From Myceligenerans pegani (GTDB lineage: Bacteria > Actinomycetota > Actinomycetes > Actinomycetales > Cellulomonadaceae), in assembly GCF_014892515.1 (NCBI RefSeq), contig NZ_JADBGR010000111.1, forward strand, positions 17,859 through 66,101: a stretch of DNA of 48,243 nucleotides. Reading direction: 5' to 3'. The translations under genes were made by a program, and so were the position numbers. The notes under the pieces are model-generated. The model searched no databases, was not told the DNA's origin, and worked only from the letters and a program-made list of their open reading frames with translations. Below are positions 9,288 to 17,032 of the stretch, piece after piece. The first letter of the stretch is position 1; every line of letters starts with the position of its first letter.

Positions 9288-10365
9288 GCAGCCCGGCCGA
9301 GCGCGGACAACGGAGGGCCGCCGTCCGGCCCGGGCGGTGACCCGCGACTACTCCGTCCTGGCGAAGCTTGTGCGGGAGTCGGGGCTGCACCGGCGACGGT
9401 ACGGGTACTACTGGACACGTCTGATCGGCACCACCATCGCCTTCGGGCTGGTCTGGACAGGGATCGTGCTCGTCGGTAACTCGTGGTGGCAACTCCTGCT
9501 CGCCGGAGCGCTGGCCGTCGTCCTGGCCCAGCTGGCGTTCCTCGGCCACGACAGTTCCCATCGCCAGATCTTCCGCTCGCGGGCGTGGAACGACTGGACC
9601 GGGCGCGTCCTGGCGAACGTGTTCGTCGGCCTGAGCCACATGTGGTGGACCACGAAGCACAATGCCCATCACGCCGCGCCGAACCAGGAGACCCGCGACC
9701 CGGACATCTCCCCTGGAGTGATCGCCTTCACGCCCACGATCGTGGCGAGCCGCCATGGCTGGCGCCGCTGGTTCACCCGCCGGCAGGGCTGGTTCTTCTT
9801 CCCACTGCTGCCGCTGGAAGGGCTCAACCTGCACGTGGCGAGTGTGCGTACCGTGCTCGGCACCAAGCCCGTGGTGCATCGCGGGGTCGAGGCTCCCGTG
9901 CTGCTGACCCGGCTGGCCGTGAACGTCGCCGTGCTCCTCGTCCTGCTGCCGCCCTCGATCGCCGCCGCCTTCCTCGCTGTGCAGCTCGGTCTGTTCGGTG
10001 TGCTGCTCGGCGGCGCGTTTGCCCCGAACCACAAGGGGATGCCGATCGTCCCGGCCGGTACCGAGATCGACTTCCTGCGCCGGCAGGTACTCATGTCACG
10101 CAACATCCGGAGCAATGTCGCGGTCGACTTCTTCATGGGCGGGCTCAACCGGCAGATCGAGCACCATCTCTTTCCGAGCATGCCCCGGCCCAACCTCCGT
10201 CGGGTCCAGCCACTTGTCCGGGAGTTCTGCTCGACTCTCGGCGTCCCATACGCCGAGGTGGGTTTCTTCCGCTCCTACGGGATCGTCATCGGCTACCTGA
10301 ACGATGTCGAGCACCGCGCGCGCGACCCCTTCGGGTGCCCTGTGGCCGCCCAGCTCGGCCGTTGA
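9271..10365 (+). CDS. Membrane fatty acid desaturase
   Basis: A 364-residue integral membrane desaturase (FA_desaturase superfamily). It has the three histidine boxes that bind the di-iron centre: H93-D-S-S-H97, H130-N-A-H-H134 and Q295-I-E-H-H299. Four to six hydrophobic helices lie between them. QIEHH in the third box is typical of acyl-lipid/acyl-CoA desaturases of the linoleoyl-CoA (front-end-like) group in actinobacteria, which introduce a double bond using a ferredoxin or similar electron donor. GTG at 9271 is the longest start and overlaps the upstream gene. A start somewhat further in is possible, because residues 1-24 are not membrane or catalytic. It probably alters membrane lipid unsaturation as element-borne cargo. 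Confidence 0.85.
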   Translation: MFASSEQPGRARTTEGRRPARAVTRDYSVLAKLVRESGLHRRRYGYYWTRLIGTTIAFGLVWTGIVLVGNSWWQLLLAGALAVVLAQLAFLGHDSSHRQIFRSRAWNDWTGRVLANVFVGLSHMWWTTKHNAHHAAPNQETRDPDISPGVIAFTPTIVASRHGWRRWFTRRQGWFFFPLLPLEGLNLHVASVRTVLGTKPVVHRGVEAPVLLTRLAVNVAVLLVLLPPSIAAAFLAVQLGLFGVLLGGAFAPNHKGMPIVPAGTEIDFLRRQVLMSRNIRSNVAVDFFMGGLNRQIEHHLFPSMPRPNLRRVQPLVREFCSTLGVPYAEVGFFRSYGIVIGYLNDVEHRARDPFGCPVAAQLGR

Positions 10366-10926: not shown

Positions 10927-11949
10927 TCACGTCGGGCCCTGCCCTGTCGAGGGGCGGGGCCCCGGCACGCGGACCACCAACGACCTGGGACTGATCCGGA
11001 TCCTGGCCGCGGTCACCTGACCGAAACCGTCACCGTCGAGCTCAACGGACTGCGGGGACTCGAACCGCGCGGTCAGGCTCCGTCCTTGCACATACTCCAT
11101 GGCACGCAGCCGTGGCACGGACCGCAGGACGACCCTGCCCGCGTACGAACGGTCGAGGAAACCACCGATCATGAGGCGCCACCCGACGCGCACCCATTGC
11201 CAGAATCCCTTGGGCCGCAGGAGGACGACGTCGAGCAGGCCGTCGTCCACCTCGGCGTCGGGCAGCAGCAGGATCCCTGCGGTGAGAGTGCCGCAGTTGC
11301 CGACGATCACGGTGTGCGCGCGGACGGTGTGCTCACGAGCATGATCGACGCGGTAGTGCATGGTGAACCGCTTGTTCCCCACGACCGACCGGCTGATCGG
11401 GTCCGCGTAGGCCAGCCAGCCGACTCTCCGTTTCAGCGCGGCGTTCGTGCCGGTCGCCATGCTCGCGTCCAACCCGATACCCGCCATCACCAGGAACAGG
11501 TGCGTGGACACCGGGCCGTGGGGGTGCTCGAACTCGGCCAGGCCCACGTCGATCATGCGGTCCGAACCGCTGAAAGCTACCTGGACTGCCGCCTCCAGCC
11601 CTACCCGTAGCCCAAGTTCGCGAGCCAGCAGGTTCCCCGTCCCTCCGGGGACGATCGCCAGCGGAATCCCGCTCGAACGGAGTTCCTCGGCCGCTGCTCG
11701 CACCGTACCGTCACCGCCGACCACGACGACAAGCGCCGGATCATGACCCAGCGCGCTCCTCACCGCCTCACGTCCCAGGCCCTCAGATGTCGTCTCGAAC
11801 CAAAGATGCGGTTGCCACCCCTGGCGCCGTTCCTCCGCAGCAAGCGCCACGCGAAGACGAACGACATCGACCCGGACCGGGTTCACGATCACGGCGGCGC
11901 GATCTCCCGACGGCGCGTGTGCGCGAGGCGAACCCTGCACGATCACCAC
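10927..11949 (-). CDS. Diacylglycerol kinase-like lipid kinase (DagK/YegS family)
   Basis: A 340-residue protein. The catalytic DAGK domain has the nucleotide motif VVVVGGDGTVRAAAEEL and the GIPLAIVPGGTGNLLARELGL motif. The C-terminal beta domain carries DVGLAEFE, FLVMAGIGLDASM, DDGLLDVVLLRPK and a closing VELDGDGFG. The early NP-x-SG loop reads NPVRVD, a variation from the usual NPxSG. These enzymes phosphorylate diacylglycerol or related lipids (sphingosine/undecaprenol-like) with ATP. GTG at 11949 (VVIVQGS) is the best start. The open frame extends to 12276, but that part lacks homology and crosses the palindrome repeat. With the desaturase and LapA-like genes it makes a lipid-directed cargo block. 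Confidence 0.8.
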   Translation of the reverse strand: MVIVQGSPRAHAPSGDRAAVIVNPVRVDVVRLRVALAAEERRQGWQPHLWFETTSEGLGREAVRSALGHDPALVVVVGGDGTVRAAAEELRSSGIPLAIVPGGTGNLLARELGLRVGLEAAVQVAFSGSDRMIDVGLAEFEHPHGPVSTHLFLVMAGIGLDASMATGTNAALKRRVGWLAYADPISRSVVGNKRFTMHYRVDHAREHTVRAHTVIVGNCGTLTAGILLLPDAEVDDGLLDVVLLRPKGFWQWVRVGWRLMIGGFLDRSYAGRVVLRSVPRLRAMEYVQGRSLTARFESPQSVELDGDGFGQVTAARIRISPRSLVVRVPGPRPSTGQGPT

Positions 11950-13030: not shown

Positions 13031-14326
13031 TCAGAGGGACAGGCGGTGGGTGAGGTCGGCGATCTCACTGCGCACGTCAGCGCGGTGTTCCCACCGGCGT
13101 AGCACGGGCAGGGTCCGACGCACCTCTGAGAGCGCCGAGTGCGAACCTACCTGGTCACAGGCGTCCAGGGCGTCCCAGGCCAGGCGGAGCGAGTCGTCTG
13201 GCTGGCCCGCATTGGCGTAGGCGCGGGCCAGCTTGGCGCGGCTGATCGTCGCCGTGCGGAGCGAGGAGTGAGCCAACCCGTCCAGCCGCGGTTGCAGGGC
13301 GTCGATCACGCTGTCTCCGCGTCCGAGGTAGATGTCGCATGTCGTCTGGTAGACCGCGCGGAGGTTGTCGCCGACAACGCTGCGTTGGCCGAGGTGGGCT
13401 TCGTCGTCTCTGCTGGCCCGGGCGAGCAGTCGCATCGTCTCATCCAGTGCCCGCTCGCTGGCGTCGGCCTGCCCGGCCAAGGCGAGACCCATCGCCGTCT
13501 GCTTGTAGGCCAGGCCCCGCACCCAGGCCAAGTCGGTCATGCTCAGGACCGGCGCTACGGCGTCGACCGCCCGGAGCCCGTCGCCCGTGAAGTTGACCAC
13601 CAGCATGGAGCGGCGCACGAAGGTGTAGCCGATCATCGGTTCCCACCGGGCGGTGGCGGCCCACTGGGCGGCACGGTCGACCCAGTACAAGGCGCCGGAA
13701 AGGTCGCCTGCTTCCTCACACAGCCATGACAGGGACTCGACATATCGGGCCTGCATCACGGCGAACGCCGTGCGCTGAGCGGTGCTCGCGCGTTGGCCCA
13801 GCCGGTCCAGCAGGGCCACCTTGCCGGTCATGTCTCCGATGAGCTGGGCAGGTGGCACAGACCGCGCCGCTGTCGCGAAGCCCACGAACGCACGCTCGAA
13901 CGCTGCGAGCGAGTCACCATCGGCGGCGAGTTCGAGGCGGTCGAGGAGGTCATCGATCCGGCTGGCCAAGGTGCCGCCAAGGGCGCCGATGGTGAGTCCT
14001 GCCAACAGTTCACGTCGCGAGATCGGCATCGTTACGCCTCCTTCCGGCGGCCGCAGTACGACGACGTCATCAAGCGCATTCGCATTTGGTAGACGGGTGT
14101 GGGAAACAGTATCCGCGCCGGAGGCGAGCGTGGCGATGGCCCCGCCTGTGCCGTAGACCGCGTCCAGGGCCTCGGCCAGCCATGGCTGAAGCTGGCGCCG
14201 CCCCTTCTCCACGTACGAGAGCAGCGATTCGGCGCAGCCGACCTGCCGGGTCACCGCTGCCAGCGTCAGGCCCCGAGATGTGCGCAGTTGCCGCAGCATC
14301 GCGCCGAGTTGCTGGTCACCGGGCAT
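13031..14326 (-). CDS. XRE-type HTH regulator with TPR-like C-terminal region
   Basis: A 431-residue protein. Residues 5-60 are a Cro/C1-type HTH (LGAMLRQLRTSRGLTLAAVTRQVGCAESLLSYVEKGRRQLQPWLAEALD). A linker follows with SRRELLAGLTIGALGG (about 103-118), resembling an embedded hydrophobic element. About 300 residues of helical TPR-like repeats follow (SALYWVDRAAQWAATARW, LAYKQTAMGLALAGQADASERALDETMRL, AKLARAYANAGQPDDSLRLAWDAL). Such HTH-TPR regulators are common in actinobacterial integrative elements, plasmids and secondary-metabolite loci, and often sense a peptide or small ligand through the TPRs. The gene is divergent from the HAD operon with 197 bp between starts, so it probably controls that promoter. 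Confidence 0.8.
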   Translation of the reverse strand: MPGDQQLGAMLRQLRTSRGLTLAAVTRQVGCAESLLSYVEKGRRQLQPWLAEALDAVYGTGGAIATLASGADTVSHTRLPNANALDDVVVLRPPEGGVTMPISRRELLAGLTIGALGGTLASRIDDLLDRLELAADGDSLAAFERAFVGFATAARSVPPAQLIGDMTGKVALLDRLGQRASTAQRTAFAVMQARYVESLSWLCEEAGDLSGALYWVDRAAQWAATARWEPMIGYTFVRRSMLVVNFTGDGLRAVDAVAPVLSMTDLAWVRGLAYKQTAMGLALAGQADASERALDETMRLLARASRDDEAHLGQRSVVGDNLRAVYQTTCDIYLGRGDSVIDALQPRLDGLAHSSLRTATISRAKLARAYANAGQPDDSLRLAWDALDACDQVGSHSALSEVRRTLPVLRRWEHRADVRSEIADLTHRLSL

Positions 14327-14357
14327 GCGGGCGCTCCTCGGCAGTGTGATGGCCGGC

Positions 14358-14442
14358 TTGACAGTTCTTCACAGCCGAGCGCGATCGCTCGACCGCGCCC
14401 AGTCAAGCACAGCAGCCTTCTGGTGGGCGGTCAAAGACCGCC
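14358..14442. promoter_or_regulatory. Divergent regulatory region with inverted repeats
   Basis: TTGACA at 14358-14363 is a good -35 on the plus strand, although the -10 at 17-bp spacing (GCGATC) is poor. GAGCG-CGAT-CGCTC (14378-14391) and GGCGGTC-AAA-GACCGCC (14426-14442) are inverted repeats between the XRE regulator and the HAD gene. The first could be an operator. The second, with its 3-base loop, would be a hairpin in the HAD leader. Confidence 0.45.
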
Positions 14443-14523
14443 GCATCCCGAAGACGGCTTCGACAGCGCCTTCCGAACTCGGCAGTACGCACCCTCTCGA
14501 ACTTCGATCGACCGGAGCACGAC

Positions 14524-15390
14524 ATGCTGACCACCCCACACGAGTCCACGACGCCCGGCCGCCCGGTCAAGGTGGTGTTCCTCGACTACGACGGCACGAT
14601 CGTGCGCGAGGGGGACGACATCGTGCCGGAACCAGTACGGAACGCGGTTGCCCGGACCATCGCGAAGGGCATCAAGGTCGTGCCCTGCACCGGCCGATCC
14701 GCACTGGGCATCTTGCCCGTGGCCGAAGTTCTCGGGCTGGGCAAGGGCTCGGTGTTCATCGCCTCCAACGGCGCGATCACCGGCGAGCTGACCGGGAAAC
14801 GTCATCGTCCGTTCGACGTCGTGCGTAAGCGGGTGTTCGACCCGTGGGCCGCGCTGACGGTGGCGATGGCGGTAGAACCGCAGGTCAGCATGGCTGTGGA
14901 GCAGGTCGGGGTCGGATGGCGCGTGAACAAGCCTTTCCCCATGGGTCGGCTGCGAGGGCTTCAGCACATCGTGGACGAGCGGGTGCTGTGGTCGGAGCAC
15001 ACCACCCGTGCCGTCGTGCACGCACCGGGGATCGCGGCCTATGCCCCGCAGATCGAGGGCGCCGGGTTCACCGCGACACCGACCGCTGACGACTGGATCG
15101 ACGTGACGCAGCGCGGCCTGTCGAAGGCGACTGAGGCCGATGCGCTGCGGCGCCGGTGGGGTATCCACCCCGACGACACCGCCGCGATCGGCGACGGCCG
15201 CAACGACATCCAGTTGCTGCACCAGGTCCAGCACGCCTTCGCCATGGGGCACTCCGCCCAGGCTGTAAAGGACGCGGCCGACTACATCACCGGCACGCTC
15301 GACCACCACGGAGCGGCCTCCGCGCTGAACACCCTGACCCTGTCCACCCGGAAGCCCGAACCGGCCATGACGAAGGCAGGGGCACGATGA
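14524..15390 (+). CDS. HAD-IIB (Cof-like) hydrolase of the island
   Basis: A 288-residue HAD phosphatase. Motif I is FLDYDGT (Asp21 and Asp23), motif II is PCTGRS, a Lys lies in the cap/RGLSKATEADAL region, and motif IV is AIGDGRNDIQLL. The IIB cap is between about 95 and 200. The fold is that of phosphatases acting on sugar or nucleotide phosphates, and the substrate is unknown. A GGAG ribosome site (14514-14517) precedes the ATG. The stop overlaps the next start as ATGA. It is divergent from the XRE-TPR regulator and heads a coupled three-gene unit with the 85-aa and 26-aa genes. It is not closely similar to the chromosomal HAD gene at 1438. Confidence 0.8.
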   Translation: MLTTPHESTTPGRPVKVVFLDYDGTIVREGDDIVPEPVRNAVARTIAKGIKVVPCTGRSALGILPVAEVLGLGKGSVFIASNGAITGELTGKRHRPFDVVRKRVFDPWAALTVAMAVEPQVSMAVEQVGVGWRVNKPFPMGRLRGLQHIVDERVLWSEHTTRAVVHAPGIAAYAPQIEGAGFTATPTADDWIDVTQRGLSKATEADALRRRWGIHPDDTAAIGDGRNDIQLLHQVQHAFAMGHSAQAVKDAADYITGTLDHHGAASALNTLTLSTRKPEPAMTKAGAR

Positions 15391-15644
15391 GCATCTTCGA
15401 GGGCGAGGGAGACTTCACCGCCGAGACCACACACGGCCCTCCGCGCGAACCCGCGCAGTGGCAGGTGGGTGATCGGGTACGAGTCGTGGGCGGATCGCGC
15501 CTCCTGCTCGGCGCGACCGGCACCGTCGTCGAGGTCGACGTCTTCGAGGCCGGACAGGTCAGGGTCGACATCGACCGGGCCGGATTCGGCAGGGCACTCC
15601 TGGCTTCCCACGAGTTGGAACCGGCCGACGGTACGACGTCGTGA
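15387..15644 (+). CDS. Small KOW/SH3-like protein
   Basis: An 85-residue protein. After a polar N-terminus, residues 23-80 read WQVGDRVRVVGGSRLLLGATGTVVEVDV then QVRVDIDRAGFGRALLASHELEPA. This resembles a KOW or SH3-like barrel, the motif found in ribosomal and transcription proteins that contact nucleic acid. The ATG overlaps the stop of the HAD gene (ATGA, 15387-15390), and its own stop overlaps the next start (GTGA, 15641-15644). Tight coupling suggests stoichiometric expression with both neighbours. The function is unknown. Confidence 0.65.
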   Translation: MSIFEGEGDFTAETTHGPPREPAQWQVGDRVRVVGGSRLLLGATGTVVEVDVFEAGQVRVDIDRAGFGRALLASHELEPADGTTS

Positions 15645-15721
15645 TCTGGCTGGTGGTCGGCTACATCGCCCTGCTCGCCGTGCTGCTCGGCGTGCTGCGC
15701 GCCTCGCAGGTGCGACGGTAG
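15641..15721 (+). CDS. 26-residue membrane peptide
   Basis: A GTG start overlapping the previous stop (GTGA) opens a 27-codon frame that encodes a single hydrophobic helix (WLVVGYIALLAVLLGVLRAS) with a basic QVRR end, then TAG. The position and coupling make translation plausible, but the short length gives little statistical support. If real, it would be a small bitopic membrane protein. Confidence 0.4.
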   Translation: MIWLVVGYIALLAVLLGVLRASQVRR

Positions 15722-15768
15722 ACGGCCGCATCCCACAGCCCTCCTGGCCTTCCTGACCTTCCGTTCTA

Positions 15769-15887
15769 GCGGTCGGACGTGCACCCCCGGAATCCCTGCA
15801 CCTCCTTGCACAGCGTCCGCCGCGAGCCCGCCCACCCCCGGGCGGGTACCTCAGGCGGGCCGGGACCGACGCCCCTCGGTCCCGGCC
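15769..15887 (+). ncRNA. Three-stem structured leader RNA, copy 1
   Basis: P1 pairs GCGG(T)CGGACG (15769-15779) with CGTCCGCCGC (15814-15823) around a conserved loop containing CACCCCCGGAAT and TGCACCTCCTTGCAC. P2 pairs CCCGCCC (15827-15833) with GGGCGGG (15840-15846), loop ACCCCC. P3 pairs 12 bp, 15858-15869 with 15876-15887, loop CGCCCC. It lies 46 bases before the 125-aa gene, whose GGAGGT ribosome site (15919-15924) could pair with the CACCTCC of the P1 loop. Copy 2 at 16326 keeps the loops and changes the stems compensatorily. The family is not recognised. Confidence 0.7.
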
Positions 15888-15933
15888 GGCACCCCAAGCA
15901 CCACCGACGACGAACCCGGAGGTAACGACCGAC

Positions 15934-16311
15934 ATGTCCCAGCACTCCGTCGCGGTCGGCTACGCCCGTGACACCTCACAGCTCGCCGTCGTACAAGCCC
16001 ACGCCCGCGACCACGGCTACCGGCTGGCCCACGTGATCGACGACAGTCGCGACGCCGCCACGATTAGCCAGCTCACCAAGCAAGCGATGGACCGCGGCGC
16101 TGACGTCGTCATCCTGCCCGGCGACGCGATCCTGTCGACCGCCCGCAAGAGGCTGGAGAAGGAGCTGACGAGTGTCGGCGCGAGGTGCGTCGTGCTCGGC
16201 GCCCCGAGCGCCCCGGCCCGGGCCGCACTCGAACGCGTCATGCCACGACGCGACTTCGACGCCACGCGGGGGAGGCACACCAAGGGAGCCGCCCAGAGGA
16301 CCGACGCCTGA
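15934..16311 (+). CDS. Solitary serine-recombinase-like N-terminal domain protein
   Basis: A 125-residue protein. Residues 5-95 follow the resolvase/invertase N-terminal fold: VGYAR start, a Q followed by a helix (LAVVQAHARDHGYRL), a strand (AHVIDD), a helix (ISQLTKQAMDRG) and ADVVILPGDAIL. The usual GYARVST becomes GYARDTS, so the catalytic Ser position holds Thr14. The LDR-type arginine region reads PGDAIL. No DNA-binding domain follows. It is therefore unlikely to be an active recombinase and may be a regulator or dimerisation partner. The start is set by GGAGGT (15919-15924). The gene sits between the two structured leader RNAs. Confidence 0.65.
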   Translation: MSQHSVAVGYARDTSQLAVVQAHARDHGYRLAHVIDDSRDAATISQLTKQAMDRGADVVILPGDAILSTARKRLEKELTSVGARCVVLGAPSAPARAALERVMPRRDFDATRGRHTKGAAQRTDA

Positions 16312-16325
16312 CAACTCAAGAACTT

Positions 16326-16441
16326 GCGGCCGGGCGAGCACCCCCGGAATTCCCTGCACCTCCATGCACGGCGCCCGGCCGCAGGCCCGCCACCCCGGCG
16401 GGCCCAGACGGGCCGGGGCTCACGCCCCCGAGTCCCGGCCC
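16326..16441 (+). ncRNA. Three-stem structured leader RNA, copy 2
   Basis: P1 is a perfect 11-bp stem, GCGGCCGGGCG (16326-16336) with CGCCCGGCCGC (16372-16382), and its loop contains CACCCCCGGAATT and CTGCACCTCCATGCAC. P2 is GGCCCGCC (16384-16391) with GGCGGGCC (16397-16404), loop ACCCC. P3 is 12 bp, 16410-16421 with 16430-16441, including one G-T wobble, loop ACGCCCCC. It begins 15 bases after the stop of the 125-aa gene. No intact gene follows: the integrase fragment starts about 10 bases after P3, so the gene originally controlled by this leader was probably deleted. Confidence 0.7.
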
Positions 16442-16449
16442 ACCCAGGA

Positions 16450-17032
16450 TCCAGCGGGCACCTCGCGGTGTGCGCCTTTGCTGGATTTGCGCCTGGGCGA
16501 GGCTGCCGGCCTCCAGGTGGGGGACATCGACTTCCTGCGCCGCACCATCGGGGTCAATCGCCAGATCCAGGGTTCCACGGACAAGACCACCACGGTCGAA
16601 CCGCCGAAGTACGGGTCCGAGCGGACGATCCACGTGCCGCGCGAACTTCTCACGCTGGTGTCCCAGCACATCGCGAAGTTCGCGCCGCGCGGCGACGAGC
16701 GCTGGATCTTCTGGAACCCGAACCACGCGGACAACGGGCTGTGGAACCACAACAGCGCCGGGCAGGCATGGCGGACGACACGGCGCGCTGCCGGTCTGGA
16801 GGCGTTCACGCTCCACGACCTGAGGCACTTCTACGCCTCGGGACTCATCGCGGACAACTGCGATGTCGTCACCGTGCAGCGAGCGCTCGGGCACTCCAGC
16901 CCGACCATCACCCTCGGCACCTACGCACACCTGTGGCCGAGCGCCGAGGACAAGACGCGGGCGGCGGCGACATCCCTGATGCGCACCGTCCTGTCCGCGA
17001 AGCCCGCCGCCAAGGCGGCGCAAACCTCCTGA
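16450..17032 (+). pseudogene. int: Tyrosine recombinase (integrase), 5'-truncated and frameshifted
   Basis: The catalytic domain is nearly complete: LRLGEAAGL (first Arg), PPKYGSERTIHVP (Lys), LHDLRHFYASGLI (HxxR), LGHSSPTITLGTYAHL (His and nucleophile Tyr), stop at 17032. Two lesions are visible. The N-terminal arm-binding and core-binding domains are missing. The conserved AFAG segment, encoded around 16478-16490, is in a different frame from the following LRLGE, which one extra T in GGATTTGCG would explain. Phage- and ICE-type integrases normally have about 380-420 residues. The position beside attR fits the integrase of this element. Without the N-terminal domains it should be inactive. 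Confidence 0.8.

Follow-up and report, generated by a model that had tools for sequence, protein, structure and literature searches.

A structured RNA element of three consecutive hairpins (P1, P2, and P3) recurs between genes in a single bacterial family, which we take to be the Promicromonosporaceae. To date, 25 copies have been identified at 23 loci in eight genomes: ten copies in the genome of Myceligenerans pegani, the source of the window (the whole stretch of 48,243 nucleotides analysed here), four and three in two other genomes, and eight together in the remaining five. We regard it as a new RNA family, though of a familiar kind: the intercistronic cis element. Its unusual trait is that it marks the junction between one upstream gene module and many different cargos. 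We infer, with a little less than even confidence, that this cis-acting RNA controls the gene that follows it, perhaps by hairpin-cluster attenuation. The features of the window that bear on the element are these:

13031 to 14326, minus strand: NsdA-like HTH/TPR regulator, divergent (NF053720, 66.6 bits, below the cut-off of 75; HTH_31, PF13560)
14524 to 15390, plus strand: HAD-IIB (Cof-like) hydrolase (PF08282, E 9.6e-33; TIGR01484, 61.5 bits, cut-off 41.8)
15387 to 15644, plus strand: SH3/KOW-like protein of 85 aa, its ATG overlapping the HAD stop codon (weak KOW match, PF00467, E 1.1)
15641 to 15721, plus strand: hydrophobic-peptide ORF of 26 codons, its GTG overlapping the preceding stop codon (read directly)
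15766 to 15890, plus strand: element copy 1, with P1 arms at about 15769-15780 and 15813-15823, P2 at 15827-15846, and P3 at 15855-15890
15934 to 16311, plus strand: resolvase-like small protein, ATG 41 nt after copy 1 (start and Shine-Dalgarno sequence, SD, assigned)
16323 to 16441, plus strand: element copy 2, with P1 arms at 16325-16336 and 16372-16383, P2 at 16384-16404, and P3 at 16410-16441
16478 to 17032, plus strand: truncated tyrosine integrase, where the gene following copy 2 would be (PF00589, E 4.8e-19, profile positions 36-168 of 172)

A sequence-only reading of this DNA had placed two three-hairpin copies at 15769-15887 and 16326-16441. Both are present, with the slightly wider edges listed above. 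The copies align with 102 identities over 125 columns and 8 gap positions, and their fold z values are -4.05 (copy 1) and -5.64 (copy 2), with 0 of 200 dinucleotide shuffles folding as well in either case. Reading back the letters confirms the compensatory changes that had been reported: an A-T pair at 15777/15816 versus G-C at 16334/16374 in P1, and, in P3, C-G at 15867/15878 versus T-A at 16420/16431 and G-C at 15868/15877 versus C-G at 16421/16430. Copy 1 is the weaker of the two. Its P1 is imperfect (T15773 is unpaired) and its covariance-model score is a weak 23.9 bits, versus 33.3 bits for copy 2; it is accepted as a family member because it is 88% identical, across 238 nt, to the copy at locus L032. 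A search with the loop pattern of copy 2 gives one match in the window and none in 100 shuffles; copy 1, whose loop is one base shorter, does not fit this pattern. Strong hairpin triples are uncommon as judged by an insensitive generic scan for three adjacent strong hairpins, which detects 9 of the 25 copies and 11 places elsewhere (807,392 bases, both strands), and 3 places in one shuffled strand.

The first additional copies were obtained by blastn around the matches, in the M. pegani genome and in relatives, of the small gene between the two window copies, and more were recovered with a hairpin descriptor run on 20-kb loci. A covariance model built from nine copies was run on the fetched loci, the M. 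pegani genome, 12 relatives, and the genus. The window and 15 other loci were reached through the resolvase-like gene and are therefore biased towards the module, and seven loci were reached via the RNA model alone. The weakest copies kept are those of L042 (30.5 bits) and L089, which has no HAD gene. Model matches of 20-26 bits in L033, L036, L053, L061, and others are left out of the count, and three of 27 model matches were later dropped, two that lay opposite true copies, on the reverse strand, and one (L075:651-741) in a stretch judged to be coding. In L087, tandem copies (9313-9415 and 11740-11844) flank an open frame of 583 codons, and about 170 nt behind the element are duplicated too, with 89% identity.

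Covariation among the homologues, the check proposed for a selected RNA structure, lies above controls in both alignments. A MAFFT alignment of nine copies has changes on both sides in 8 of 30 pairs, with 92.6% of cells paired. A model-fitted alignment of the 27 matches, still including the three later dropped, has both-side changes in 22 of 30 pairs (61 both-side-change cells) and 93.8% of cells paired; 0 of 500 shuffles reach these values, and controls with slid positions give at most 47.6% paired. The paired percentage is partly by construction, because the descriptor and the model both look for paired stems. G-U pairs outnumber A-C combinations by 38 to 18 in the 24 rows kept from the model-fitted alignment, and by 21 to 9 (p 0.043) when stems are picked from Watson-Crick pairs only. 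For all five copies tested out of the 25, the fold z is better on the plus strand, whereas the raw fold energy is lower on the minus strand for four of the same five. On balance, the G-U excess and the fold z favour an RNA of the coding (plus) orientation. The claim of a selected RNA structure outside the named families is thus well supported. At gathering score, Rfam 15 reports only a tRNA in the window, with no match for the element, and searches of 20 loci with E up to 1 yield nothing; the literature searched contains no description of this element. The loops, which the same reading considered conserved, are C-rich across the whole family, but their exact letters are kept only in a subset: some copies, mostly in the genus of the window, carry the long P1 loop (CACCCCCGGAAT...TGCACCTCC), and in the rest the P1 loop is short and C-rich.

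The element is patchily distributed. Within a sample of 41 genomes of the family (best 97 candidates scored in each), it is present in 5 genomes and 2 of 25 genera. A set of 12 relatives chosen for the resolvase-like gene adds a third genus; six of them carry the element and six do not. With the best 10 candidates scored per genome, the covariance model finds only the M. pegani genome and one other (G014) across the order and the class (396 and 394 genomes), a weak negative. A strict P1 pattern gives 71 stretches in a species-wide collection, of which the model supports three (E 1e-8 or better), all from Antribacter; 12 further stretches with E values of 0.036 to 0.52 are not accepted, and one viral stretch with the pattern is not supported as an element. 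Because the strict pattern matches just 4 of the 25 known copies, it does not establish absence outside the window's genus and Antribacter. The exact loop pattern is not found in the genome-contig and viral-contig collections, a distant blastn of 15750-16460 against plasmids gives no match, and a profile of the resolvase-like protein run on the class (394 genomes, best 10 candidates each) finds the M. pegani genome and one distant match.

The position of the element is intercistronic. By an automatic rule, 16 of the 25 copies begin 1-28 nt past the stop of an open frame on the same strand; in the other nine, the rule accepted no stop codon within 60 nt. A start codon with a ribosome site follows the element at a distance of 32-59 nt in 12 copies, across a linker of 10-28% G. 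The other 13 have no start codon within that range, or none assigned, and the distance to the next start is 77-124 nt in several copies. The term 'leader' used in the sequence-only reading needs amending: with 16 copies just past a stop codon and at least 12 close before a start codon, in what resembles an operon, the element is not a plain 5' leader. In the window, the 26-codon ORF terminates 44 nt before P1 of copy 1, and successive overlaps of four bases link the HAD, KOW-like, and small-peptide frames, which suggests one operon. Both copy 1 and the L032 copy precede the resolvase-like gene and also lie inside the module. Neither a sigma-70-like promoter nor a T-tract terminator was found in 14300-16600. 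Runs of four or more T are absent within 44 nt from the element's end in 24 of the 25 copies, and on these two observations the element does not qualify as a canonical intrinsic terminator, in which a GC-rich hairpin runs directly into a stretch of T. L037 has TTTTT 14 nt behind the element, and L057 has 5 T in 8.

The recurring upstream module consists of the NsdA-like regulator and the HAD phosphatase, often with the small resolvase-like protein. A HAD match is present in 35 of 40 loci tested, 21 with the element and 14 without an accepted copy, and so the module does not need the element. Conversely, a HAD gene or its remnant lies upstream of the element in 22 of the 23 element loci, and element and HAD gene share a strand in all 21 loci having both. 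Among the seven loci that only the RNA model reached, the HAD gene is present in five, reduced to a remnant in one (L177), and absent from one (L089). The remnant, of about 70 aa (L177:9249-9455), stands in a locus that keeps the regulator, the KOW-like gene, the element, and the cargo. Homologues of the KOW-like protein occur in L032, L033, L036, L037, L050, L088, and L177; the L088 homologue matches KOW PF00467 with E 0.0025, below the cut-off, and structure prediction for the protein (pLDDT 41) gives no usable model.

The resolvase-like protein has 11 matches in the M. pegani genome. It matches no Pfam family at E values up to 0.1, its NCBIfam matches are weak and unrelated, and a relative has no match to a Pfam or NCBIfam family. 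In a sequence comparison of the family with solved structures, the best match is a serine-transposase catalytic domain, at a weak E of 0.0019; the structure model (pLDDT 74) matched nothing in the PDB at an E value of 0.001 or lower. The motif of serine recombinases includes an Arg and a Ser. Since the invariant columns of the family lack these two residues, there is no support for recombinase activity of the gene behind copy 1, which had been described as recombinase-like. In two relatives, a single protein carries both the resolvase-like and the HAD domain (L060:8986-10089 and L061:5410-6510), suggesting that both module proteins act together. The 'deleted gene' reported behind copy 2 can be specified further: the sequence there is the truncated tyrosine integrase, perhaps a deletion scar or an old mobile element.

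What follows the element varies widely. Genes behind it were scanned against families in 10 of the 23 loci, and RiPP maturation genes are found in 6 of the 23. In L032, the cargo is an FxLD-system methyltransferase (TIGR04364) that reaches the curated RiPP cut-off, with a LanB-like protein close by on the opposite strand. In L045, it is a cyclophane-forming radical-SAM maturase (NF041718), which also reaches its curated cut-off. DNA homology assigns the cargo of L034, L035, and L041 with that of L032, and L046 with L045. Other radical-SAM enzymes follow in L037 and L091, a MurA-like enzyme with a phosphoesterase in L090, and a HIT protein in L058; an HTH protein is the first gene in L035, and an APH-family kinase is the second gene in L092. 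The genes behind the element in L044 and L054 have no family match.

Homology edges between loci place the element at a boundary. Comparison of 24 copies (276 pairs; L177 is not among them, and shortened flanks were used for the four tandem copies) gives an in-register DNA match over the element in 59 pairs. In 22 of these, the match extends more than 290 nt upstream, and for 19 of that group it stops at a point from -71 to +14 relative to the element's 3' end, often within P2 or P3. In another 22 pairs, the match begins at the first bases of P1; 20 of these end between -52 and +13 of the 3' end, so the element alone is shared. The remaining 15 have shorter or mixed matches. In the pair L088-L092, the match starts at the element's 5' edge and continues 1.4 kb into shared cargo. 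When filled sites are aligned with empty ones, the element stands out as a separate insert, after the stop codon and before the ribosome site, and no target-site duplication is seen by eye. Together, the edges and the filled and empty sites indicate that the element lies where the constant module gives way to variable cargo.

We propose that three stacked hairpins with C-rich loops would form in the transcript between the module's last gene and the next gene, and would set how much expression passes to the latter. Most likely, the hairpins, a cluster lacking a T run, would stall or end transcription except when some factor engaged the C-rich loops, which would be the likeliest surface for such a contact. 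A bolder version, which we regard as unlikely, is a portable RNA control unit, in which module and RNA are coupled to many unrelated cargos, including several natural-product genes, and the RNA may serve as a conserved port through which module proteins (e.g. KOW-like or resolvase-like) switch on the gene behind. Two other modes were tried and rejected. A two-state switch between P1 and P3 has own-arm energies of -24.6 versus -24.5 for permuted arms (p 0.42, 24 of 25 copies). Hiding of the SD by the element is not seen in the 12 copies folded: the predictions leave the SD largely paired whether the element is included (mean unpaired 0.30) or not (0.35), and L091 alone has a clear drop in accessibility, from 0.57 to 0.21.

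A first alternative is an ordinary hairpin-cluster intrinsic terminator that ends the module operon, the genes behind using their own promoter. Terminators of this kind, which lack a U trail and lie shortly after stop codons, have been described (Gupta and Pal 2021, PMC8355165), and the site of the element, with several hairpins less than 15 nt apart near a stop codon by the rule that covers 16 of 25 copies, fits the pattern. The copies with a start 77-124 nt away leave room for a promoter, and the T-rich stretches behind L037 and L057 would also suit a terminator. However, the sequence and order of the hairpins are conserved between loci whose flanks do not align, hairpin triples are uncommon as far as the insensitive scan can tell, 12 copies leave so little room before the start codon, and the element also occurs inside the module in the window and L032. 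The conservation, the scarcity of triples, and the short distance speak for a regulated terminator over a plain one, and we consider the latter improbable, though worth keeping in mind. We would also not expect, although it deserves some weight, a post-transcriptional stabiliser or processing element that protects the upstream mRNA and separates the mRNA of the next gene. Very stable hairpins close past stop codons would serve this purpose, and the mean SD accessibility hardly shifts with the element; the conserved three-hairpin order and the C-rich loops would be left unexplained.

Very little speaks for a unit acting as DNA to move or shuffle cargo, such as a REP- or MITE-like repeat, a recombination site, or a cassette junction. 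The element is indeed discrete with sharp edges, stands before or after the resolvase-like gene depending on the locus (both in the window), matches from its 5' edge onward in L088-L092, and is in tandem in L087. Yet it keeps the HAD gene's strand throughout, its G-U asymmetry and fold z point to RNA, target-site duplications are not apparent by eye, and an unsystematic look noticed no intact recombinase alongside. The copies adjoin the HAD gene rather than being scattered like a mobile repeat or MITE. Hardly credible is a block on translation by pairing of the long P1 loop with the SD. This loop contains CACCTCC, whose CCTCC core is the complement of GGAGG in the SD of the following gene, but in 14 of the 25 copies the pairing energy with the own partner is -7.9 versus -8.2 with permuted partners (p 0.77), shuffled SDs give -7.4 with 30 of 200 as good, and the SD of L032 is GGAAGG.

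If control of the following gene by the intercistronic RNA holds, an RNA that unrelated gene sets have in common, natural-product clusters among them, would give a shared handle for switching on silent clusters. The RNA would also be a search marker for new clusters: its model led to L090 (MurA-like) and L091 (radical-SAM), which the protein search had not listed. Moreover, the same RNA with different genes behind it is a natural series for hairpin-cluster control in high-GC bacteria.

Several known systems resemble the element in part. REP and BIME sequences are intercistronic GC-rich palindromes that follow stop codons, several per genome. The element is likewise GC-rich, palindromic, placed after stop codons, and present in several copies per genome; unlike REP and BIME, it has three defined hairpins, a fixed orientation, and one associated module, with 10 copies in its own genome. 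As with Rfam-type riboswitches and attenuators, covarying stems, here above controls as in a cis-regulatory structured RNA, lie ahead of a gene and are patchy among related bacteria, whereas the element has no Rfam match, is made of three separate simple hairpins, and precedes widely varying genes. The hairpin-cluster terminators (PMC8355165) share with it groups of hairpins a short distance past stop codons; unlike them, the element is one conserved sequence-structure family, with C-rich loops, an operon-like layout, and a single module.
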